IMG/VR virus record: IMGVR_UViG_3300022752_000354
Span: 1 to 25,525 of that record
Source of the DNA: a virus
Reading direction: 5' to 3' (one strand)
Length of the DNA stretch: 25,525 bases
The position numbers and the translations under genes are program-made. Positions 3,255 through 14,365 of this stretch are shown here, piece after piece; within the stretch, counting starts at the first letter, position 1; each line of letters begins with the position of its first letter. Below the pieces are notes generated by a model, which was not told the DNA's origin, made no database searches, and was given only the letters and a program-made list of their open reading frames with translations.

Positions 3255-3824
3255 CTACCTAGAATATTGTATTTTAGTAATAATGGGACCACTTGAATAT
3301 ATATCCCATTTGGTTGATATTTCTATTGCCTTTTTGATAATTTTTTCTGCTGTAATAGCAGATGTAACTCTATCGACATTAAGAGCCGCCATAGCACCAA
3401 TGGCAATGTCACCACCAGAGCCAGAGTAATAGATACCACGAGTATCACGATCCCAAGAATAATCCTCAAAGATAGGATAGAGTACTCCGCGAATGCTAAT
3501 AATAAATTGCGAATCATGTGCTGCTGCATCCCCGTCTTCTTTCATATCATAGCCAGCATCTATGAATAGTTTACGCATAGAAGGTATAAACTTCTTAGTC
3601 ATAAACAAATCTAAATCTTCACCAATCTTTGGTTTTGGTGGCTTCCATCCAAATTGTAATAAATTTGAACCACGTCCTGCACCAGAACCTGCAATTAGTA
3701 TTCCGTTGTTCTCAATGATTTTATTTGTAGCCATATCAATTGGTCTACCGTATTCATCTGATGAACGAGAGTCAGAACCTATTACGGACCAACCATTACC
3801 TTGAATAGCAGCAAGTGTTGTCAT
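3255..3824 (-). CDS. Proteasome beta/HslV-like Ntn hydrolase (candidate virion maturation protease)
   Basis: 189 residues. The N-terminus 'MTTLAAIQGNGWSVIGSDSR' matches the start of mature proteasome beta subunits and HslV. Removing Met would expose Thr as the N-terminal nucleophile. Asp18 then falls at mature position 17 and Lys35 ('NKII') near position 33, the classic Thr1/Asp17/Lys33 set. 'GILIAGSGAG' (41-50) resembles the beta-strand and loop after Lys33. 'YSGSGGDIAIGAMAAL' (133-148) matches the Ser129-region Gly-Ser-Gly block, and 'DIYSSG' (174-179) the Asp166/Ser169 region. No propeptide is present, as in HslV. The gene has a strong AGGAGGGG site and lies 15 nt after the portal-like gene, where many phages carry a prohead protease. 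Fold assignment is strong. A capsid-maturation role is inference; altering or replacing host proteasome activity is the alternative. Confidence 0.85.
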   Translation of the reverse strand: MTTLAAIQGNGWSVIGSDSRSSDEYGRPIDMATNKIIENNGILIAGSGAGRGSNLLQFGWKPPKPKIGEDLDLFMTKKFIPSMRKLFIDAGYDMKEDGDAAAHDSQFIISIRGVLYPIFEDYSWDRDTRGIYYSGSGGDIAIGAMAALNVDRVTSAITAEKIIKKAIEISTKWDIYSSGPIITKIQYSR

Positions 3825-7479: not shown

Positions 7480-7567
7480 AGTACTCCTAAAAAACGGTTA
7501 TTTAACGGTAGGTATAAACGGGCAGTATATACCCATTATATATAATAATATATATAATACTATAATA

Positions 7568-7598
7568 GGAGTTGTCGGAATAAAAGGGAGACAACTCC
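7568..7598. other. Stem-loop upstream of the terminase operon
   Basis: GGAGTTGTC (7568-7576) and GACAACTCC (7590-7598) form a perfect 9-bp stem with a 13-nt purine-rich loop. It is flanked on both sides by AT-rich DNA. In the minus direction it would sit in the untranslated leader of the terminase transcript if the promoter lies to its right. In the plus direction no gene precedes it and no clean T-tract follows. It could stabilise or regulate the leader, or mark an origin structure. Function unknown. Confidence 0.5.
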
Positions 7599-7633
7599 CT
7601 ATATATTAATTAATATTACATATATAGATAACC

Positions 7634-7642
7634 TGTGAATAA
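7634..7642 (-). other. DnaA-box match beside AT-rich DNA
   Basis: The minus strand reads TTATTCACA, which fits the TTWTNCACA consensus for DnaA binding. It sits just right of the AT-rich block at 7501-7620, which could serve as an unwinding element. A single match is weak by itself; it gains weight because the only other large intergenic region (19967-19975) holds a perfect box in a similar setting. Confidence 0.4.
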
Positions 7643-8001
7643 CTGAAAAACGAACAACTTAGGGTGATATATTTTTATATATGTCCGATTTATACCTATA
7701 TGTATATATATTACGGGGCTAATATAACAGAAAATTATTGTCGGATATTATATACAGGGTCTGACGCTGAGTTTAAGCACCCACCCTCAAATTGTCGACA
7801 AATCGACTTATCGACTTATCTATATTTTATGGGGTGTTATATTGTCCTAATTGTACTATTTGAACCTATTATATTGTTTTGTAGGTATTTAGTATAAATA
7901 GAGAGTTATGGACTATCTGCCCTAATAAATCCTAATCGCCCCTATTGTCCGATATGTTCTCACCCCAGTATATTACCAACCAGTAATCGAACAGATGTTC
8001 G

Positions 8002-8017
8002 TGTGATAGACACCACA
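8002..8017. promoter_or_regulatory. Imperfect Crp-like operator upstream of promoter P1
   Basis: TGTGA-N6-CCACA: one base off the TGTGA-N6-TCACA consensus of cAMP-receptor-type regulators (Crp; GlxR in corynebacteria). Ten bases separate it from the -35 box of P1. The perfect site at 8072-8087 has exactly the same ten-base spacing to P2, which argues that this imperfect copy is real. Confidence 0.5.
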
Positions 8018-8027
8018 CCATTACCCC

Positions 8028-8056
8028 TTGACTTATCGGTAGGCTTATGGTATAAT
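8028..8056 (+). promoter_or_regulatory. Promoter P1 (TTGACT-N17-TATAAT)
   Basis: -35 TTGACT (8028-8033), exactly 17 bases, then a perfect -10 TATAAT (8051-8056), reading toward the early genes. This is a near-ideal promoter for the host primary sigma factor. It is the first of three tandem promoters ahead of the gene at 8369. Confidence 0.8.
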
Positions 8057-8071
8057 CCCGCCCGCCTTGCG

Positions 8072-8087
8072 TGTGATGTATCTCACA
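8072..8087. promoter_or_regulatory. Perfect Crp/GlxR-type operator
   Basis: TGTGATGTATCTCACA. Both half-sites are perfect, and the central TA matches the actinobacterial TGTGA-NN-TA-NN-TCACA form. The centre is about 53 bases upstream of the expected P2 start, an activator-like place, and about 17 bases downstream of the expected P1 start, a repressor-like place. It could therefore swap use of P1 and P2. No Crp homologue is encoded in the window, so the regulator would be the host's. Confidence 0.65.
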
Positions 8088-8097
8088 TCAAATTGGC

Positions 8098-8126
8098 TTG
8101 ACTTGTGATAGTGAGCGTGGTATTAT
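8098..8126 (+). promoter_or_regulatory. Promoter P2 (TTGACT-N17-TATTAT)
   Basis: -35 TTGACT (8098-8103), 17 bases, -10 TATTAT (8121-8126). It lies exactly 70 bases after P1. Its spacer contains TGTGATAGT, part of a 13-base direct repeat (GACTTGTGATAGT) at 8100-8112 and 8221-8233. The expected start site falls on the palindrome at 8134-8149. Confidence 0.75.
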
Positions 8127-8133
8127 TCTCTTA

Positions 8134-8149
8134 TCAAGTTAGAACTTGA
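8134..8149. promoter_or_regulatory. Palindrome at the P2 start site (operator candidate)
   Basis: TCAAGTT-AG-AACTTGA: perfect 7-base arms with a 2-base centre, placed where P2 transcription should begin. TTAGAACTT recurs at 8184-8192, and a related inverted repeat GTGTC-GAACTT-GACAC (8198-8213) overlaps the P3 -35 box. Probably repressor-binding DNA; the regulator is unknown. Confidence 0.45.
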
Positions 8150-8206
8150 CTTGATATAACTAAATAGAGAACTAAGAACTATCTTAGAACTTAGGGCGTG
8201 TCGAAC

Positions 8207-8235
8207 TTGACACCCGCCTAGACTTGTGATAGTAT
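8207..8235 (+). promoter_or_regulatory. Promoter P3 (TTGACA-N17-TAGTAT)
   Basis: Consensus -35 TTGACA (8207-8212), 17 bases, then a weaker -10 TAGTAT (8230-8235). It lies downstream of P2 and just before the long inverted repeat. No Crp-like site lies at the matching distance, unlike at P1 and P2. Confidence 0.55.
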
Positions 8236-8248
8236 TAGTTCTACAAGG

Positions 8249-8344
8249 TTAGACTACTAGTAAGTAGCCTAGAGAGATACGCCTCTAGACAAGTCGGCGG
8301 GTGCGCTGATAGGATACTAACTAGACTACTTACTAGTAGCCTAA
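8249..8344. repeat. 24-base inverted repeat in the early leader
   Basis: The left arm (8249-8272) and right arm (8321-8344) are complementary at 22 of 24 positions, including an unbroken 14-base core CTACTAGTAAGTAG / CTACTTACTAGTAG. The 48-base loop contains a smaller inverted repeat CTAGAG (8269-8274) / CTCTAG (8283-8288). Because the arms share flanks, on the plus strand both also read AGACTACT...AGTAGCCTA. It lies between promoter P3 and the ribosome site of the gene at 8369, so the RNA leader should fold into a long hairpin. Confidence 0.7.
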
Positions 8345-8368
8345 TCACTAGAGAGAGGATAAATAGTA

Positions 8369-8701
8369 ATGCCGTATAACCCTTATGGGGTTAGCGGTAG
8401 TATTATCACCCCACCTAGACAAGTTAGGGCAAGTAAAGCATGGCGTAGGCAATACCCACGCAAGGCGTACTTCTCTAATCTAGTAGTGAGGGATAAGGCG
8501 GGCAATATAATCGTGGCTATCGAGGATAGTCAAGCGGTTAAACTTGCTAAGCGTGTCGCTAAGAACGCTAAGCCTAAGGATACTACCCCTAAACCCTTAA
8601 CAGAGTTAGAATTGCGTAGAATTGCGCTTGATGAGCGTAAGCGTGAGTTCGAGGCTAAACAAGCGGAGAACTATCGTAAGTTAGTCGGCAATTACAATTA
8701 G
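8369..8701 (+). CDS. Basic early protein of unknown function
   Basis: 110 residues and the first gene of the plus-strand operon. The ATG is preceded by GAGAGAGGATAA, a leader motif that recurs before several genes here (8823, 11279, 11645). The protein is strongly basic. Its N-terminus is Pro/Tyr/Arg-rich ('RQVRASKAWRRQYPRKAY'). The middle has a short beta-like segment ('NLVVRDKAGNIIVAIED') and the C-terminal ~45 residues are a charged helix ('ELRRIALDERKREFEAKQ'). I do not recognise a family. First place in an early operon and basic charge fit a nucleic-acid or host-takeover protein, but that is inference. Confidence 0.75.
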   Translation: MPYNPYGVSGSIITPPRQVRASKAWRRQYPRKAYFSNLVVRDKAGNIIVAIEDSQAVKLAKRVAKNAKPKDTTPKPLTELELRRIALDERKREFEAKQAENYRKLVGNYN

Positions 8702-8710
8702 TAGCCGATA

Positions 8711-8761
8711 GTCCTAGCCCGTAGGTCGGGTGTCTATGGGGTTCGATACCCCACTAGGACA
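8711..8761 (+). ncRNA. tRNA-like element with acceptor and T arms but no room for D plus anticodon arms
   Basis: GTCCTAG (8711-8717) pairs perfectly with CTAGGAC (8754-8760) as a 7-bp acceptor stem. TGGGG (8737-8741) and CCCCA (8749-8753) form a 5-bp T stem around the canonical 7-base loop TTCGATA, and the T stem abuts the acceptor strand with no spacer, exactly as in tRNA. A8761 would be the discriminator base; CCA does not follow directly (CGCCA does). Between the arms are only 19 bases, which fold into one 4-bp hairpin, CCCG/CGGG (8718-8730). A full tRNA needs about 25 bases more. Possible roles are a degenerate tRNA, an RNase P processing site in the operon RNA (a 12-bp acceptor/T helix is the minimal substrate), or an attachment-site relic. 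Confidence 0.65.
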
Positions 8762-8780
8762 CGCCATAAGTCGGGGGTAC

Positions 8781-8810
8781 TTGACTTATATGCCCTAAGT
8801 ATGCTATACT
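8781..8810 (+). promoter_or_regulatory. Promoter P4 (TTGACT-N18-TATACT)
   Basis: -35 TTGACT (8781-8786) and -10 TATACT (8805-8810), 18 bases apart, just after the tRNA-like element and ahead of the gene at 8836. An inverted repeat ATAAGTC (8766-8772) / GACTTAT (8783-8789) overlaps the -35, and a longer palindrome covers the -10. Confidence 0.7.
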
Positions 8811-8814
8811 TAGG
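8794..8814. promoter_or_regulatory. Palindromic operator over the P4 -10 box
   Basis: CCTAAGTAT-GCT-ATACTTAGG: perfect 9-base arms with a 3-base centre, covering the P4 -10 element. The geometry (perfect arms, 3-base centre, -10 inside) is the same as at P5, though the arm sequences differ. Strong candidate for a repressor site; the protein is not identified. Confidence 0.6.
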
Positions 8815-8835
8815 TATAAGTAGAGAGGATAAGAT

Positions 8836-8937
8836 ATGTTGCTAGAGATACTAGTAGCGGTTCAGACCTTAGCGATTATAGCACTAGTGGCTAGAGTTAA
8901 TCGACTACAAGGTCGCCTAGAGTATAGGGGTCGCTAA
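8836..8937 (+). CDS. 33-residue single-pass membrane peptide
   Basis: ATG preceded by AGAGAGGATAA. The product is a 33-residue peptide whose residues ~2-19 ('LLEILVAVQTLAIIALVA') form one hydrophobic helix, followed by a basic tail ('RVNRLQGRLEYRGR'). This gives a membrane anchor with the tail inside by the positive-inside rule. It lies directly downstream of P4, and its stop overlaps the next start (TAATG), so the two are translationally coupled. Function unknown; small membrane peptides in early phage operons often act on the host membrane or exclude other phages, which here is only a guess. Confidence 0.65.
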   Translation: MLLEILVAVQTLAIIALVARVNRLQGRLEYRGR

Positions 8938-9116
8938 TGTCGGACAATGTAGTAATTGAGATTACTAAGGACGACTTAGAACTTATACGCAAGTCCTTAA
9001 GAACTCAAGAGAATTGGTACACTAGGTCAGACTTTAAGAGTATGGCTATGGCTACCAATTTGCTAAGAAGTAAAGTTAATGATATAATGATAGAACTAGA
9101 ACTACCAATAAAGTAA
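8937..9116 (+). CDS. Small helical protein of unknown function
   Basis: 59 residues; the start overlaps the preceding stop by one base (TAATG). Charged and mostly helical: 'IEITKDDLELIRKSL' then 'TNLLRSKVNDIMIELELP'. No Cys pairs, signal or membrane segment. I do not recognise it. It is followed at once by the AAGGAG ribosome site of the amidoligase gene. Confidence 0.65.
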   Translation: MSDNVVIEITKDDLELIRKSLRTQENWYTRSDFKSMAMATNLLRSKVNDIMIELELPIK

Positions 9117-9125
9117 GGAGTTGAT

Positions 9126-10337
9126 ATGCCGATAGATAGTGACGAACCTACCGAACATGGTTGCGGTACTTGTAGTTATACATCTACCAATGATGACGAC
9201 TTCATAATGGTAGGTGATGACCTACTATGTGAGGGTTGCCGAGCATGGTGTAATTATTGTGAGGAGTATTGCCACAATGATAACACCCACTATGTAGAGG
9301 GTATCGGTGATTATTGTGAAAGTTGTTGGGAGAATAATACTAACTACTGCGAGAGATGTAGTTGTACATATTCCGACAATGAGAGCATGTACAATATCGA
9401 GGATAGGGGTGAGTATTGGTGTGAAGGTTGCTATGAGGACAATGGTTCTTATTGTGATGACTGCGACCAATACTATGCTAATGAGTGTGAGGGTTGCGGT
9501 GGTGGTGGTAGGACTAACCTTATCCACGACTACTCTTACAAGCCCGACCCTAAGTTTATAGGTCAAGATAAGAATAACCTATACTTTGGTATAGAATTAG
9601 AAATGGAGATTAGGTCAGGCGACCTAGCGAGTAGTGCTAAATATGTAGCAGAAAATATAGGCGAGTGGTTCTATATGAAGCAAGATAGCAGTATCGGTCA
9701 AGGTGGCTATCGAGGCTTCGAGTTAGTATCTCACCCTATATCCTTTACTAAGTGGTCGGATATGCCAGACTTTGATAGAACCTTAGACTATCTAAGAGAA
9801 CATCAAGAGGCAAGGGCATGGGACGCTAAGAGTTGCGGACTACATATACATGTAAGTCGAGAGGGGTTCAAGGGTGGCGCACATGTACATAGGTGGTTAG
9901 CACTAGTGTACAAGAACGCACCCGATATGATGAGATTTGCTGGTCGTAAGTCAGACTACGCAAAGTTCAATGATGTGTACAAGTATGATGATTATGATAG
10001 ACCATACTTTACACTAGCCGACAAGGTGGCAGACCCTAGAAGGGTAAGCACCGAGAGGCACTCTGCTATAAATACACGCAACGAACATACGCTAGAACTT
10101 AGGTTCTTTAGGGGAACTACTAAGCCTAGTGGTGTCCGTAGTGCTATACAATTAGCACACGCTAGTATAGAATATACTCGCAACCTAAACCTATCAGATG
10201 TAAAGATAGGTATGCTAGGGTGGGAGTGGTTCTATGATTATGTAGAAGCCAACAATGGCTACTACCCTGACTTATATGAGCGTATGTCCAAAGTACGCTC
10301 ATTAAGTATCAACAGTAATGAGTTAGTCAATGCGTAA
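9126..10337 (+). CDS. Amidoligase (glutamine-synthetase-like COOH-NH2 ligase) with N-terminal eight-CxxC zinc-binding region
   Basis: 403 residues, ATG with AAGGAG 5 nt upstream. Residues 1-124 hold 18 cysteines, including eight CxxC pairs (13/16, 35/38, 42/45, 64/67, 75/78, 99/102, 110/113, 121/124), interrupted by acidic and Tyr/Asn-rich loops. This looks like an array of zinc knuckles. From ~152 the sequence matches the Amidoligase_2 family: 'FGIELEMEI' (154-162, metal-binding Glu residues), 'GFELVSHP' (197-204), 'CGLHIHVS' (237-244) and 'LELRFFRGT' (323-331). Family members join a carboxylate to an amine using ATP. The next gene is a class-II glutamine amidotransferase, which could supply ammonia. 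The substrate is unknown: host protein, cell wall or a metabolite. Family assignment is strong, function in phage open. Confidence 0.85.
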   Translation: MPIDSDEPTEHGCGTCSYTSTNDDDFIMVGDDLLCEGCRAWCNYCEEYCHNDNTHYVEGIGDYCESCWENNTNYCERCSCTYSDNESMYNIEDRGEYWCEGCYEDNGSYCDDCDQYYANECEGCGGGGRTNLIHDYSYKPDPKFIGQDKNNLYFGIELEMEIRSGDLASSAKYVAENIGEWFYMKQDSSIGQGGYRGFELVSHPISFTKWSDMPDFDRTLDYLREHQEARAWDAKSCGLHIHVSREGFKGGAHVHRWLALVYKNAPDMMRFAGRKSDYAKFNDVYKYDDYDRPYFTLADKVADPRRVSTERHSAINTRNEHTLELRFFRGTTKPSGVRSAIQLAHASIEYTRNLNLSDVKIGMLGWEWFYDYVEANNGYYPDLYERMSKVRSLSINSNELVNA

Positions 10338-10349
10338 GAGAGGAGATAT

Positions 10350-11222
10350 ATGTGTCTATTAGTGGTGTGTAATCCCAATTCCACGCCTAGTAAAGATGAC
10401 CTTAGCATGGGTGCGTGTAAGAACCCACATGGCTTTGGCTTTGCGATAGATACTGGTGAGGGTATTATATCAGAACGCAGTATGTCCGCTAAGAAATCTA
10501 TCAGAAGGTTCTTAGAACTTAGAGAGCAATATCCTAATGGCTACGCTATGTGGCACGCTAGGTATGCTACTCACGGAGTTAAGAACGAACTAAACTGCCA
10601 CCCCTTCAAGGTAGTGGGCGAGCACGATACTTACTTAGCGCACAATGGTGTGTTAGATATTCATATACCTAAAGGTGATAAGCGTAGCGACACTAGGATT
10701 ATGGCAGAGGAGTTATTGCCTAGACTAGGTGGCGTGTCTGCTTTAGATGACGACTATGTATATGATATGATTAGTTCATGGGCTAGTGGTAATAAGATAG
10801 CAGTAATGACTAATGACCCTAGCGCACAGTACAAGATTTATATTGTCAATGAAAGTCTAGGTAGTTGGGACGACAATGGTGTGTGGTGGAGTAATAACTC
10901 TCACAAGTCTACCATATCTACGCCACGAACTACCACCTATAACTACACCTATGGTGAGCCTAGCGTGTATGATATAGTAGCACTAGACAAGCACTTCGAC
11001 CCTTCAATGTATGAGGATAATAAGTTCGAATGTCCTAATTGTGAGGCAGTAATAGATACATGGGAGAGTGAACTATATTGTACCATGTGTGAGTGTTGCT
11101 TTGATTGTAGCGCACAGTTCTTAGATTGCTTGTGCTATAATCCTACTGCTAAGAGCATGATAAGAGATGAGTATGGATTTTTAAGTGAGAAGTGGTACAG
11201 TAGAGAGCCACTTGACTTCTAG
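10350..11222 (+). CDS. Class-II glutamine amidotransferase with C-terminal zinc ribbon
   Basis: 290 residues, ATG preceded by GAGAGGAG. Met-Cys start: Met removal would expose Cys2 as the N-terminal nucleophile of the Ntn fold. The family signatures are visible: 'HGFGFAI' (27-33), 'HARYATHG' (69-76, Arg71 binding the glutamine carboxylate), 'NCHPF' (82-86) and 'AHNGVL' (97-102). It should hydrolyse glutamine to glutamate and ammonia. The C-terminus carries CxxC pairs at 228/231 and 244/247 plus further Cys at 249, 250, 253, 260 and 262, echoing the Cys-rich start of the amidoligase 12 nt upstream. The partners are probably co-expressed and may form a complex passing ammonia to the ligase. There is no synthetase domain of its own (not asparagine synthetase length). 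Confidence 0.88.
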   Translation: MCLLVVCNPNSTPSKDDLSMGACKNPHGFGFAIDTGEGIISERSMSAKKSIRRFLELREQYPNGYAMWHARYATHGVKNELNCHPFKVVGEHDTYLAHNGVLDIHIPKGDKRSDTRIMAEELLPRLGGVSALDDDYVYDMISSWASGNKIAVMTNDPSAQYKIYIVNESLGSWDDNGVWWSNNSHKSTISTPRTTTYNYTYGEPSVYDIVALDKHFDPSMYEDNKFECPNCEAVIDTWESELYCTMCECCFDCSAQFLDCLCYNPTAKSMIRDEYGFLSEKWYSREPLDF

Positions 11223-11245
11223 AATTGGTAGTGATATAATCACTA
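11212..11245 (+). promoter_or_regulatory. Promoter P5 (TTGACT-N17-TATAAT) with a palindromic operator over the -10
   Basis: -35 TTGACT (11212-11217) lies inside the last codons of the amidotransferase gene; -10 TATAAT is at 11235-11240 after 17 bases. A perfect palindrome TAGTGAT-ATA-ATCACTA (11229-11245) is centred on the -10. It would give the downstream genes, including whiB, separate control from the amidoligase pair. A small hairpin CTTGG/CCAAG (11265-11269 / 11277-11281) follows in the leader. Confidence 0.75.
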
Positions 11246-11291
11246 TCGATACCGACAGACACCACTTGGTAAATTGCCAAGAGGATAACTA

Positions 11292-11309
11292 ATGAAAGGT
11301 AAAGTATGA
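11292..11309 (+). CDS. Five-codon leader mini-ORF (MKGKV)
   Basis: ATG AAA GGT AAA GTA TGA. The ATG follows the operon's standard leader AGAGGATAA at the usual distance, while the next gene's ATG (11306) overlaps this stop as ATGA and has only a weak AAAGGT site. The ribosome may therefore load here and restart at 11306. It may be no more than a coupling device. Too short to judge by codon use. Confidence 0.35.
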   Translation: MKGKV

Positions 11310-11596
11310 CAACCACGACAGCAGAACAAATAGAGAACTACTTGGCTAGCATATCGCTAACACTAGCAGACCTATCAGATGAGTTGGCAACAATTCAATT
11401 TGATTTAGAGGACGCTAATGGATATGAACCAAGAGGTACAATACTTAAAGCACTACCTAATCAGACTAGGTTCAAGCCTAAGTCAGTATGGGTATCGCTA
11501 GGTAATGGTAAGTATCAACATTTGACTGGTGAGAAAGGCTTAATCGCTAAGCACTCACGCCTTGACGGGTACACTTCAGTAGTATTCCGCCCATAA
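11306..11596 (+). CDS. 96-residue protein of unknown function
   Basis: First full gene after P5. The N-terminal half is an acidic helix ('AEQIENYLASISLTLADLSDELATIQFDLED'[in two parts] at about 6-36). The C-terminal half is beta-like ('KSVWVSLGNGKYQHLTGEKG'). The Leu spacing in the helix suggests a short coiled coil. I do not recognise it. Its start overlaps the mini-ORF stop (ATGA). Confidence 0.65.
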   Translation: MTTTTAEQIENYLASISLTLADLSDELATIQFDLEDANGYEPRGTILKALPNQTRFKPKSVWVSLGNGKYQHLTGEKGLIAKHSRLDGYTSVVFRP

Positions 11597-11610
11597 TAAA
11601 CTAGTTAATT

Positions 11611-11636
11611 GTGGGTGGGGTTATTGCCCCACCTAC
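11611..11636 (+). other. Intergenic GC-rich stem-loop
   Basis: GTGGGTGGGG (11611-11620) pairs with CCCCACCTAC (11627-11636), 10 bp with one G-U, around a TTATTG loop. It is the most stable small hairpin in an otherwise AT-rich operon. No T-run follows, so it is not a standard terminator. It may protect RNA ends, pause polymerase, or set off expression of the whiB group. Confidence 0.5.
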
Positions 11637-11656
11637 GCAAACAGAGAGGATAATAT

Positions 11657-11797
11657 ATGTTAGAGGAATACGCATGGACTTCTTATATCAGAAAGTCTGA
11701 CACTCAAAGTCTATCAGATGACGAGTTAAAACAAATGGTATCAGAATTAAACATGGCAGTTCAGGCTATCTGCTTTACTCATGGGATACATAACTAA
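11657..11797 (+). CDS. 46-residue protein of unknown function, coupled to whiB
   Basis: ATG with AGAGAGGATAA upstream; the stop overlaps the whiB-like start by one base (TAATG). The middle is an acidic helix ('SLSDDELKQMVSELNMAVQ') and the tail reads 'AICFTHGIHN'. No known family. Coupling to the WhiB gene suggests the two products are wanted in similar amounts. Confidence 0.6.
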   Translation: MLEEYAWTSYIRKSDTQSLSDDELKQMVSELNMAVQAICFTHGIHN

Positions 11798-12225
11798 TGG
11801 CAGGTGCGTTTGGTACTGGTCTTAAGAATAGCGTGTTTGGCTATCTGTTTAATGACTTAGACTTAGATGTTAGTGATGGGTTATGTGTTAAACATGATGA
11901 CCCTGACCTATGGTTCGCTGGCGAAGCCGAGAAAGAGGACGGCGAGAAGTGGACATTCAATAGAAAACAGAGAGAGCGAGTAGCACTAGAAGTAGATAGG
12001 GCTACACAGGCTCTAGCAATATGTAAGAATTGTCCAGCCAAAGTTAATTGTTTAGAACTTGGTATGCGTGGTACACAGATATACTATGGTATATATGGTG
12101 GCACTATGCCAGGTGAAAGATTACTTAAACTTGGTAGGAGTATGAAAAAAGCAGAGTACGCTAACAAGTTAAACTTTGCAAATAAAGTTAGGAGAACTAT
12201 GAAAGAAAGGGGAATAAGTGGATAG
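11797..12225 (+). CDS. whiB: WhiB-family Fe-S transcription regulator
   Basis: 142 residues. Four cysteines at 30, 76, 79 and 85 give the WhiB signature C-xn-CxxC-x5-C ('CKNCPAKVNC' at 76-85), ligands for a [4Fe-4S] cluster. The glycine turn that in hosts reads G-[VI]-W-G-G is here 'GIYGG' (98-102), with Tyr for Trp. 'MPGERLLKL' follows, then a long basic C-terminal helix region ('KKAEYANKLNFANKVRRTMKE' in part) suited to DNA. WhiB proteins bind host sigma factor region 4 and change promoter choice. Phage versions (mycobacteriophage TM4 WhiBTM4 is the studied case) can act as dominant negatives. The family is restricted to Actinobacteria and their phages, so this is the best host marker. Confidence 0.93.
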   Translation: MAGAFGTGLKNSVFGYLFNDLDLDVSDGLCVKHDDPDLWFAGEAEKEDGEKWTFNRKQRERVALEVDRATQALAICKNCPAKVNCLELGMRGTQIYYGIYGGTMPGERLLKLGRSMKKAEYANKLNFANKVRRTMKERGISG

Positions 12226-12394
12226 TGATATAGTCTGGCAAGGGGTAATCACTAATGATATGGTAGCAGGTTGGTCTGCTGATAAAGTAAGTACACTTAT
12301 CAGAGAACTAGACGACTTGGTATTCATTACATATGAAGAATTATCTAGCGACAGAGAAAACTTAGAAGGTCTATTCGACAATGAATACGAATAG
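12218..12394 (+). CDS. 58-residue acidic protein of unknown function
   Basis: GTG start (12218) with an AAAGGGG ribosome site five bases upstream, overlapping the whiB end by 8 nt; the stop lies inside the next gene (14-nt overlap). Strongly acidic ('RELDDLVFITYEELSSDREN' at 30-49). No Cys and no membrane segment. An internal ATG at codon 15 is a weaker start. Not recognised. Confidence 0.6.
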   Translation: MDSDIVWQGVITNDMVAGWSADKVSTLIRELDDLVFITYEELSSDRENLEGLFDNEYE

Positions 12395-12821
12395 AAAAAA
12401 GAAAAAAAGATTTAATATAAGAAAAGGATTTATATTGCTACTCGGTGTGGGGATATTACTTGTACTGAGTATCAAGTTTGCTAGCCATATTGGCGAGCCT
12501 ACTTCAACCCCGAAAGAAATATCTAAGGGTTGGACAGTAATGGATAGCAAGTCATACGCTCAGGATAAGTTATACGAGTGGCAATATAAACAATGGTCAT
12601 GCCTTAATAAGTTATGGACTAAGGAAAGCAATTGGAGACCCAACGCATACAATAAAGTTAAAGTAATGGGCAAGAATGCTGGAGGTATTCCACAACTATT
12701 AGGGCTTGACCCCAAAACTCCCGCGCCAAAGCAAATAGATAGAGGCTTGTCTTATATCTATAATAGGTATCACACACCTTGCGAAGCATGGAAGTTCTTT
12801 AATAAGAAAGGGTACTACTAA
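12381..12821 (+). CDS. Membrane-anchored lytic transglycosylase-like protein
   Basis: 146 residues. The basic N-terminus ('NRKKKKRFNIRKG') is followed by one membrane helix at ~17-33, so the rest should lie outside the membrane. The outer domain matches the short transglycosylase/resuscitation-factor-like domain common in actinobacterial phages: 'LNKLWTKESNW' (75-85) with Glu82 as the likely catalytic acid, 'AGGIPQLLG' and 'GLSYIYNRYHTPCEAW'. Cys74 and the Cys in 'TPCEAW' probably form a disulphide. It should cut glycan strands of peptidoglycan. It lies in the early operon, far from the lysis genes at 20235-20869, and its anchor points to a wall-remodelling role in infection rather than simple lysis. 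Confidence 0.8.
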   Translation: MNTNRKKKKRFNIRKGFILLLGVGILLVLSIKFASHIGEPTSTPKEISKGWTVMDSKSYAQDKLYEWQYKQWSCLNKLWTKESNWRPNAYNKVKVMGKNAGGIPQLLGLDPKTPAPKQIDRGLSYIYNRYHTPCEAWKFFNKKGYY

Positions 12822-13042
12822 TTAAACCTAAACACATTACAGAACTTAAGCCAGACTATAAGTCTGCTATGGACATTCGTGGTAGAGCCACTACCACATG
12901 TCCTTGCGGTTGTAATATCTGGAACTTAAAGACTGTCTTTGATGAAGAGACAGGTGAGATTGACATGTACTTTCTAGATATGGAGTGCGCTTTATGTGGC
13001 ACTCTTGCAACAGCACCAACACCAGATGATGAGGAGATATAA
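12821..13042 (+). CDS. 73-residue zinc-ribbon protein, likely ATT start
   Basis: The frame is open from 12821 and ends at 13042. The only ATG is internal (12869), but 'IKPKHITELKPDYKSAMDIRG' (first 21 codons, here described to codon 20) reads as real protein. ATT at 12821 overlaps the upstream stop (TAATT) in the same way TAATG joins its neighbours, and GAAAGGG lies 8 nt upstream. Two CxxC-type pairs, 'CPCGC' and 'CALCG', about 40 residues apart suggest a zinc ribbon. The tail is acidic. ATT is a rare but real start codon; starting at 12869 would give 57 residues. Confidence 0.6.
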   Translation: MKPKHITELKPDYKSAMDIRGRATTTCPCGCNIWNLKTVFDEETGEIDMYFLDMECALCGTLATAPTPDDEEI

Positions 13043-13218
13043 TGCCTACATATTCTTATAGATGTATAGATGATAAGACACTATTAGAACTAAGTCGTAA
13101 TGTAGATAACAGAGATGACTTAGTTGAATGCCCACAATGTAATAAAGAAATGACAAGAGAATATCAAGCCAACCCTGTACATTTTAAGGGCACTGGATTC
13201 TATTCAACGGGAGGTTAA
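13042..13218 (+). CDS. FmdB-like zinc-ribbon protein
   Basis: 58 residues; the start overlaps the upstream stop (TAATG). It has the FmdB-family pattern: 'MPTYSYRC' at the start, 'CPQC' at 31-34, and the ending 'FKGTGFYSTGG', which matches the F-x-G-x-GFY-x-T tail of that family. Cys8 stands alone where the family usually has a CxxC pair, so one zinc ligand may be missing or replaced. FmdB proteins are small presumed regulators; the job in phage is unknown. Confidence 0.75.
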   Translation: MPTYSYRCIDDKTLLELSRNVDNRDDLVECPQCNKEMTREYQANPVHFKGTGFYSTGG

Positions 13219-13219
13219 T

Positions 13220-13339
13220 ATGCCATATGGTAAATGCTGGGTGTGTGGTTGTATAATGAGTGGCGATAGTCAAACTCTAGAAGGTAAAGTTAAATGCGAT
13301 AGATGTGGTTGGATATCATCTAAGAATGGAGACTGGTAA
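13220..13339 (+). CDS. 39-residue zinc-ribbon peptide
   Basis: ATG one base after the upstream stop, with GGGAGG just upstream. The peptide contains 'CWVCGC' and 'CDRCGW' separated by a short loop, a minimal rubredoxin-like zinc ribbon, and ends 'SSKNGDW'. The stop overlaps the next start (TAATG). Not assigned to a family. Confidence 0.65.
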   Translation: MPYGKCWVCGCIMSGDSQTLEGKVKCDRCGWISSKNGDW

Positions 13340-13422
13340 TGGATAATACAATTCTATTATTAGAGGAAGCCAATAGAATTATGGCTGATATATTTAACAT
13401 AGAGGAGGATAGTAATGAGTGA
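13339..13422 (+). CDS. 27-residue acidic peptide
   Basis: Coupled to the previous gene by TAATG and overlapping the next by 8 nt. One amphipathic acidic helix ('ILLLEEANRIMADIFNIEED'). At this size only the tight junctions support it as a gene; it may serve mainly to bring ribosomes to the next start. Confidence 0.45.
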   Translation: MDNTILLLEEANRIMADIFNIEEDSNE

Positions 13423-13540
13423 ACCTATGTATTTAATGGGTGATGATGTTGCACTAGGTATCAACCAAACCTGTGATGACTGCGATGAGATTGATTGTAT
13501 ATGCTTTGAACCTGATAGAATGTGGGGAGATGATGATTGA
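13415..13540 (+). CDS. 41-residue acidic Cys-rich peptide
   Basis: ATG preceded by AGAGGAGGATAG, a strong ribosome site. Contains 'CDDCDEIDCIC', four Cys in a short acidic stretch, suited to binding one metal ion. The start and end overlap the neighbouring genes. Not recognised. Confidence 0.6.
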   Translation: MSEPMYLMGDDVALGINQTCDDCDEIDCICFEPDRMWGDDD

Positions 13541-13661
13541 TATTACAGAACAAGATGAACAAGATGAAATGCTGGCAAAGTTCTGGGCTGACTATGGCGA
13601 GAGTCTATGGGTAGACCCAGCAGAACAGGAAGAGTTATGGAATGATACTGAAAGCAATTAA
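13530..13661 (+). CDS. 43-residue acidic protein ending the early operon
   Basis: 'MMIDITEQDEQDEMLAKFW...' with GGGGAG immediately upstream; either the ATG at 13530 or the one at 13533 may be used. A longer frame starts at 13473 but has no ribosome site and would overlap the previous gene heavily. Very acidic, with several Trp. Could be a charge mimic or binding peptide; function unknown. Last plus-strand gene before the convergent junction. Confidence 0.5.
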   Translation: MMIDITEQDEQDEMLAKFWADYGESLWVDPAEQEELWNDTESN

Positions 13662-13696
13662 GTACAGTGTTATCACTGCGATAGTAACCTATTATA
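13662..13696. terminator. Convergent junction with a weak hairpin
   Basis: Only 35 bases separate the plus-strand operon from the minus-strand sigma gene. CAGTG (13665-13669) and CACTG (13674-13678) form a 5-bp stem with a 4-base loop, followed by AT-rich DNA. It could give mild two-way termination but is not a strong terminator, so the two transcripts may run into each other. Confidence 0.3.
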
Positions 13697-14365
13697 TTAT
13701 TCTTGCGGTGGCTGCACTTCTGATTCTTGTGACTCCTCTTGACTAGACTCAGTGTCAACATCATGATAGGGTTTGTATCCACCTATCTTATTAATGAGTC
13801 TACGAATAGCACGATTAAGTCTCATTCTTGCAGCACTATCTGTCCCAAGTTCTAAGTAATTTGATATCTCACCGAAGTCTAAGTTCTCTGCAAAGCGCAA
13901 GAATATAATTCTTCTATCATCTTTACTTAACTTCCAATAACCTGAGTCAACTTCTAACATCATAATAGTTAGGTTGCCACCTTCGGCTGGGGCAGATGGT
14001 CTGCCTGGTCTACCAAGATTTAATTTATGTGTAACACCATACTCACCACGCAATACGGGTGGTAGTAATGCTTCAACTATTTCTGGTTCATAGTAATGTA
14101 AGTCAGTAACATCATAGCCAATAGACTTAGCCTTCCAACGTTGGCAATAATCTAATGCTTGATTACGAAGTGAACGATAGATTAAATTTTTAGCGTCCTT
14201 CTCACCTATTGCTTCCCAATCTTTAAGTTTATTTGGGTGCTCTGCGAACCATTGATACAGCGATTGTCTTATATCCTCTAACTCTACCATAGAAAATTTC
14301 TTATGGTACTCTGAGGCAACCGCTGTTACAATGTAGTCCCACTTCTCAATGCTGTCCCAATCCAC
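13697..14365 (-). CDS. Phage-encoded sigma factor-like protein
   Basis: 222 residues, GTG start directly abutting the TAA of the upstream phosphoesterase gene. Residues ~20-80 resemble sigma region 2 (helical, 'LEDIRQSLYQWF' then 'NLIYRSLRNQALDY'). Residues ~143-196 resemble region 4 with a helix-turn-helix ('LSKDDRRIIFLRFAENLDFG', then 'AARMRLNRAIRRLINKIGG'). The linker at 110-135 is Gly/Pro-rich, and the C-terminal 25 residues are an acidic Ser/Glu/Gln tail. It should guide host RNA polymerase to phage promoters. As the last gene of the replication module it is timed for a middle or late switch; the late promoters it reads are not identified. Confidence 0.75.
   Translation of the reverse strand: MDWDSIEKWDYIVTAVASEYHKKFSMVELEDIRQSLYQWFAEHPNKLKDWEAIGEKDAKNLIYRSLRNQALDYCQRWKAKSIGYDVTDLHYYEPEIVEALLPPVLRGEYGVTHKLNLGRPGRPSAPAEGGNLTIMMLEVDSGYWKLSKDDRRIIFLRFAENLDFGEISNYLELGTDSAARMRLNRAIRRLINKIGGYKPYHDVDTESSQEESQESEVQPPQE

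Follow-up and report, generated by a model that had tools for sequence, protein, structure and literature searches.

The analysed stretch of virus DNA (record IMGVR_UViG_3300022752_000354; 25.5 kb, 25,525 nt; hereafter the window) carries adjacent genes for a glutamine synthetase (GS)-like amidoligase and a class II (Ntn) glutamine amidotransferase (GATase), which are best read, with a probability of roughly 0.45, as a single glutamine-dependent enzyme that would be made early, hold its substrate or a partner with zinc fingers, and amidate a carboxylate of the host envelope. The assignment of the genes and their folds is close to certain, and the two very probably constitute a physical or functional pair. 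The first-pass annotation, made from the letters alone, had proposed neighbouring Amidoligase_2 and Cys2 Ntn GATase genes, and both reading frames were recovered, with the quoted motifs FGIELEMEI, CGLHIHVS and LELRFFRGT all present in the amidoligase ORF.

Table 1. Predicted features of the amidoligase-GATase locus (positions in the window, or in the relative named)
Feature	Position	Strand	Basis or remark
Three further strong promoter-like sites (8028, 8098, 8207)	8028..8235	+	
Strong promoter upstream of the pair, predicted	8781..8810	+	Similar place in L016, L008
Extended -10 sigma-70 promoter of the pair, TTGCTA-17-TATAAT, predicted	9060..9088	+	66 bp before amidoligase
Amidoligase gene P0001, 403 aa	9126..10337	+	Amidoligase_2 match, model fold, homologues in 45 phage loci
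N-terminal Cys-rich domain, residues 13-124, eight CxxC pairs	9162..9497	+	Cys conservation, weak LIM matches
GS-like ligase domain, residues ~150-375	9573..10250	+	Invariant residues, Foldseek matches
Class II (Ntn) GATase gene P0002, 290 aa	10350..11222	+	
Glutaminase domain, residues 1-190	10350..10919	+	Invariant residues, GlmS fold match
GATase C-terminal Cys cluster, residues 228-262: C2C, C2C, C2C, CxC	11031..11135	+	
Promoter-like site over GATase stop codon, start of next unit	11212..11240	+	Also after GATase in L016, L008, L035
tRNA-like RNA copy, L047	6032-6083		
tRNA-like RNA copy, L091	6076-6124		
tRNA-like RNA copy, L013	6654-6700		
tRNA-like RNA copy, L071	2331-2375		
tRNA-like RNA copy, L123	6415-6369		

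The amidoligase, preceded by the Shine-Dalgarno sequence AAGGAG (9115-9120), scored 26.7 bits against Pfam Amidoligase_2 (PF12224), above the 22-bit cut-off. In GxELE, CGLHIHVS and LELRFFRG the protein has motifs similar to those that bind metal and ATP in glutamine synthetase (ExE, HxH and ExR), and their roles are assigned by analogy. The residues E157xE159, K185xD187, E199, H240xH242 and E324xR326 were invariant among 47 sequences with identities down to 35%. The AlphaFold2 model (mean pLDDT 85) was matched by Foldseek to gamma-glutamylmethylamide synthetase (GMA synthetase; E 1e-4) and PafA (E 8e-4), as well as to glutamine synthetases, Dop and YbdK, with probabilities of 0.98-1.0 across the set. 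The TM-scores were low (~0.3) at a Foldseek probability of 1.0, reflecting remote matches and a two-domain model, and the case for the fold therefore lies in the consistency among the ranked matches. Fold prediction and the conservation of the catalytic Glu, His and Arg had been named by the first-pass annotation, along with co-occurrence of the two genes in relatives, as the points on which its proposal would turn; the fold search returned the GS superfamily and these residues proved invariant in the homologues. Judged from sequence and model, the protein is a predicted ATP-dependent ligase of GS-like type whose active site is intact.

The GATase ORF starts after a 12-nt gap on the same strand and has the Shine-Dalgarno sequence GAGGAG (10340-10345). 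Its scores fell slightly below the Pfam cut-offs (GATase_6, 26.1 versus 27 bits; GATase_4, 21.9 versus 23 bits), which are score thresholds and not defining biological features, and the relative in L204 passed clearly with 50 bits. C2, R71, H75, N99, G100 and D114 were invariant in 45 sequences, and the RxATHG and HNG motifs aligned to GlmS. The top fold match of the AlphaFold model was the GlmS glutaminase domain in complex with glutamate (E 3e-7), and PurF and EgtC were also matched. From these alignments and the model, the protein is a GlmS/PurF-type glutaminase with an N-terminal cysteine (Cys2), and its active site is intact. The C-terminal CxxC pairs that had been noticed in the letters turned out to be three CxxC and one CxC (C228/231, 244/247, 250/253 and 260/262), with all eight Cys invariant in 42-45 sequences. 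The tail was also present in gp106 of mycobacteriophage Marvin and absent from most clostridial partners, indicating that it is not needed for pairing in general.

The two genes were adjacent in 95 of 96 first-round phage loci, and the exception was a contig starting inside the GATase; every complete locus examined in the phage family had them side by side. When 84,980 species genomes were searched with a profile, 80 amidoligase loci were obtained, about 77 of which had a class II GATase immediately or closely downstream (68 by a stricter pattern); the GATase was not found, even by tblastn, in L194 and L219, nor in L240, which is cut by a contig end. The two-protein machine envisaged earlier is thus borne out by adjacency, by the expected folds and by the retained catalytic residues. 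Both genes were under purifying selection (dN/dS ~0.06-0.34 in the usable comparisons), which argues that they are not a product of chance. The window GATase was 90% identical to partners of ligases that were just 55-58% identical to the window amidoligase, indicating that the partners are exchangeable. As a class II glutaminase is encoded beside a GS-like ligase, glutamine-dependent amidation of a carboxylate is the natural reading. In the proposed mechanism, the Cys2 nucleophile of the GATase would hydrolyse glutamine and hand ammonia to the ligase, and the ligase would activate the substrate carboxylate with ATP as an acyl phosphate and convert it to a primary amide. We consider this coupling between the two proteins probable.

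The genome loci belonged mostly to gut Clostridia and also to Coriobacteriia, Victivallis and Phycisphaerales, and most of their GATase-paired ligases had six N-terminal CxxC pairs. In the few loci checked for context, integrase, resolvase, recombinase or relaxase genes were located nearby, suggesting that the pair benefits mobile DNA beyond the lytic cycle. Amidoligases accompanied by gamma-glutamyl cyclotransferase (GGCT) have been reported on a C. difficile transposon (PMC3485107) and in C. clostridioforme prophages (PMC11318856). An apparent amidoligase-GATase fusion in an Atopobiaceae MAG (L247, 4969-7215) was explained by a one-base deletion relative to a Collinsella locus (L232) that is 97% identical and has two separate genes. 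A contig binned as 'Rhodobacteraceae' (L184, 1-3330) carried the phage pair at 58% identity and is probably a misbinned phage fragment. Neither protein matched any of the PADLOC defence models.

The N-terminal region of the amidoligase contained exactly the eight CxxC pairs counted in the first reading (C13/16, 35/38, 42/45, 64/67, 75/78, 99/102, 110/113 and 121/124), at positions conserved in about 45 relatives. Among 45 homologues with 42-95% identity, 15 of the 16 Cys were invariant and C113 was kept in at least 90%. Over the first 130 residues the CxxC pairs were kept and the remainder varied, with 26-50% identity to many relatives. Residues 13-67 fit the LIM spacing CX2C...CX2CX2-3CX2C...CX2C. 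The PDB sequence search with the amidoligase gave weak LIM and FYVE matches only, and for the finger domain the matches were a LIM profile from the PDB (E 0.06) and LMO2 by Foldseek (E 0.015). The pairs probably make up four predicted Zn sites with LIM/treble-clef-like spacing, and on these weak matches the domain looks unlike the zinc knuckles named in the first-pass annotation.

The fingers (window 9126-9550) and the catalytic core (9560-10337) gave conflicting trees in a comparison with L009-L012 and L052. The finger tree grouped the window with L011, L012 and L052 (support 98/98), whereas the core tree grouped it with L009 and L010 (90/92). AU tests rejected the swapped groupings (p 0.023 and 0.045) for groups that were picked after the identities were known, and the evidence for separate exchange of the finger domain and the core is consequently suggestive. 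The finger domain was more variable and evolved faster than the core. LIM-like, variable and swappable fingers fit with, and do not prove, a role in the choice of target.

As for the target, the host envelope is a tentative choice, which we rate a little below even odds. It follows the wall target predicted for phages of the phiEco32, RIO-1 and LUZ24 types, called a hypothesis in those reports (PMC5498523; PMC10580990). The LIM-like fingers may hold a macromolecular substrate or a partner protein, and the substrate could be a carboxylate in the peptidoglycan stem peptide; the infected cell might thereby be changed, one possible outcome being protection from superinfecting phages. The usual binding partners of LIM-like domains are proteins, and this speaks against peptidoglycan. 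The same chemistry could instead be directed at a host or phage protein, with the fingers docking on it and a Glu, Asp or C-terminal carboxylate being amidated so that host machinery is redirected. We place this on the unlikely side, although several observations agree with it: the fingers resemble protein-interaction domains; the Pup ligase PafA, which modifies proteins, ranks second among the kinds of fold match; the finger domain shows faster evolution and has apparently been exchanged apart from the core; and the pair resides on elements whose hosts differ greatly in envelope type. On the other hand, the dN/dS of the fingers was low, like that of the core, and the fingers may simply be structural or hold the two enzymes together. 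A broader proposal appears decidedly unlikely to us, namely that LIM-like-finger amidoligases with dedicated glutaminases form a class of their own among the amidating machines of mobile elements, found in actinophages and in mobile DNA of gut Clostridia, that amidates specific host proteins with exchangeable fingers setting the target.

The suggestion that the system might be undescribed did not survive comparison with known phages. Pairing of amidoligase and GATase has been published for Pseudomonas phages tf and UFV-P2 and LUZ24-like phages, and for RIO-1-like phages within a 'peptidoglycan modification cassette'; OM43 phages with the pair have been reported with reference to Marvin (PMC10580990). 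In these OM43 phages, MEP401 and MEP402, the adjacent genes also lie near one end of the record, but the ligase has a long unrelated N-terminus with few CxxC pairs and the GATase lacks the zinc tail. In LUZ24, gp18 (Amidoligase_2) is followed by gp19 (class II GATase) in the same order as in the window, whereas gp18 has no N-terminal Cys domain. The cassette of LUZ24, phiEco32 and RIO-1-like phages is said to have been predicted by Iyer in 2009 and Hardies in 2013 to modify peptidoglycan. Marvin (Marvinvirus), whose gp105 and gp106 were reportedly described by Mageeney et al. in 2012, is the closest named relative: its amidoligase and class II GATase are adjacent, the former with a CxxC-rich N-terminus and the latter with a Cys tail like that in the window. 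It differs in belonging to another phage family, in having the pair at the right genome end with 32-35% identity to that of the window, and in a gp105 with fewer CxxC pairs before the ligase motif and an extra C-terminal region. MurT-GatD belongs to other families, being composed of a Mur ligase and a class I type GATase. Its amidation of peptidoglycan is a functional analogy, with no homology claimed, in which a glutaminase and an ATP-dependent ligase amidate a wall carboxylate (PMC3267633).

The LUZ24 cassette comprises gp16 (COOH-NH2 ligase), gp18, gp19, gp21 (RimK-type ATP-grasp) and gp22 (GGCT). Neither GGCT (control positive in 9 of 14 genomes) nor COOH-NH2 ligase (PF14395; positive control LUZ24 detected) was found in any of 22 phage records, indicating that two genes suffice as a unit. 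With these two tested cassette partners missing and the Cys N-terminus absent from LUZ24 gp18, the pair of the window is a variant of the known pairing, and the zinc-finger-bearing two-gene form seems undescribed within the literature searched. It is also the smallest unit seen. To our knowledge, within the literature searched, no substrate of a phage amidoligase has been established experimentally in over a decade. A relative exists in a genetically tractable model, Marvin on M. smegmatis, and together with the smallest unit this makes the question of what phage amidoligases amidate directly testable.

Two further explanations were considered. There is only a small chance that the pair serves to synthesise or alter a metabolite, either a small molecule or a peptide, such as a glutamine-like or antibiotic-like amide: a similar prediction exists for several amidoligase operons, a role in secondary metabolite synthesis was suggested for the Marvin pair (PMC10580990), and the closest fold match, GMA synthetase, and YbdK act on small molecules. 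However, no other conserved biosynthetic gene lies beside the pair, with GGCT and COOH-NH2 ligase absent, and the large conserved zinc-finger domain would be left unexplained. In solved enzymes, the ammonia released by class II GATase subunits is channelled to a synthase domain, which weighs against a ligase that joins a different amine. Such a ligase, with a GATase acting separately as a glutaminase or a link-reversing amidase, is highly unlikely given that the adjacency is almost never broken, even though PafA, YbdK and GMA synthetase use amines or lysine and not ammonia and PMC5498523 places phage GATases among 'degradation' genes.

Amidoligase relatives at 95% identity sit in records of ~39.5 kb, and the window is therefore probably a fragment of a genome of that size. 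TerL and portal shared ~75-76% identity, and the DnaB-like helicase 83%, with their counterparts in two cultured phages of 'Ca. Planktophila', LanE43AprE7 and LanE43AprF5 (OX376640/OX376641; PMC10202952). WhiB and a sigma-like factor were common to the window phage and E7/F5. By these sequence identities the window phage belongs to the same family, and the host is most likely a tiny freshwater actinobacterium of 'Ca. Nanopelagicales'. The pair was located between terL and whiB in 24 of 24 closer TerL relatives having enough upstream sequence. Neither gene was found in the E7 and F5 genomes, where a nuclease-like ORF and other small genes occupy the terL-whiB interval. The pair is accordingly near-core in one branch, nearly universal in phages whose probable hosts rank among the most abundant bacteria of fresh water, and absent from a sampled neighbour. 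That cultured relatives do without it counts against envelope amidation as the best explanation. The island between terL and whiB (window 7480-13697, compared with L102/L103) is replaced in E7/F5 and represents a variable accessory site. Elsewhere in the window, a homologue of HslV/proteasome-like Ntn peptidases adjoins the portal gene (3255-3824, - strand; phrog_1040, E 9e-20).

Early expression, also part of the first-pass annotation, found indirect support. Strong sigma-70 sites, defined by an extended -10 together with 10 or more of 12 matches, numbered six in the whole window, all on the + strand between 8028 and 11240, against 0.8 expected and a maximum of 3 in 40 simulated sequences, for a subset defined after the list was seen. 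The plain promoter count over the window showed no significant excess (22 versus 20.3 expected). A strong site was present 57-68 bp ahead of the amidoligase in 4 of 8 relatives (L016, L008, L061 and L064), and no equally strong site preceded the replication and virion genes on the - strand of the window. It is reasonable to suppose from these sites that the pair is transcribed early by the host RNA polymerase, so that the enzyme would be made early from host-type sigma-70 promoters. The promoter island (8028-11240, +) stands in a record transcribed mostly from the other strand.

A 51-nt minimal tRNA-like RNA was observed ahead of the amidoligase, on its strand (window 8711-8761, +). ARAGORN called no tRNA there, and no Rfam family was above threshold, the best sub-threshold one being mascRNA; the RNA was not found in E7/F5. 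Its fold consists of an acceptor stem, a single short arm and a T-arm capped by a TTCGA loop, and apparently lacks a full anticodon arm. Nine distinct versions carried both-side changes in pairs of all three helices, and 100% of the cells in the alignment were paired, compared to 33-45% when slid. Weaker relatives with strongly different sequence occur upstream of the amidoligase, on the same strand, in several divergent members, most of which keep the acceptor stem, the TTCRA-type loop and the discriminator A. Our guess is that the RNA may mark early transcripts for processing by RNase P/Z.
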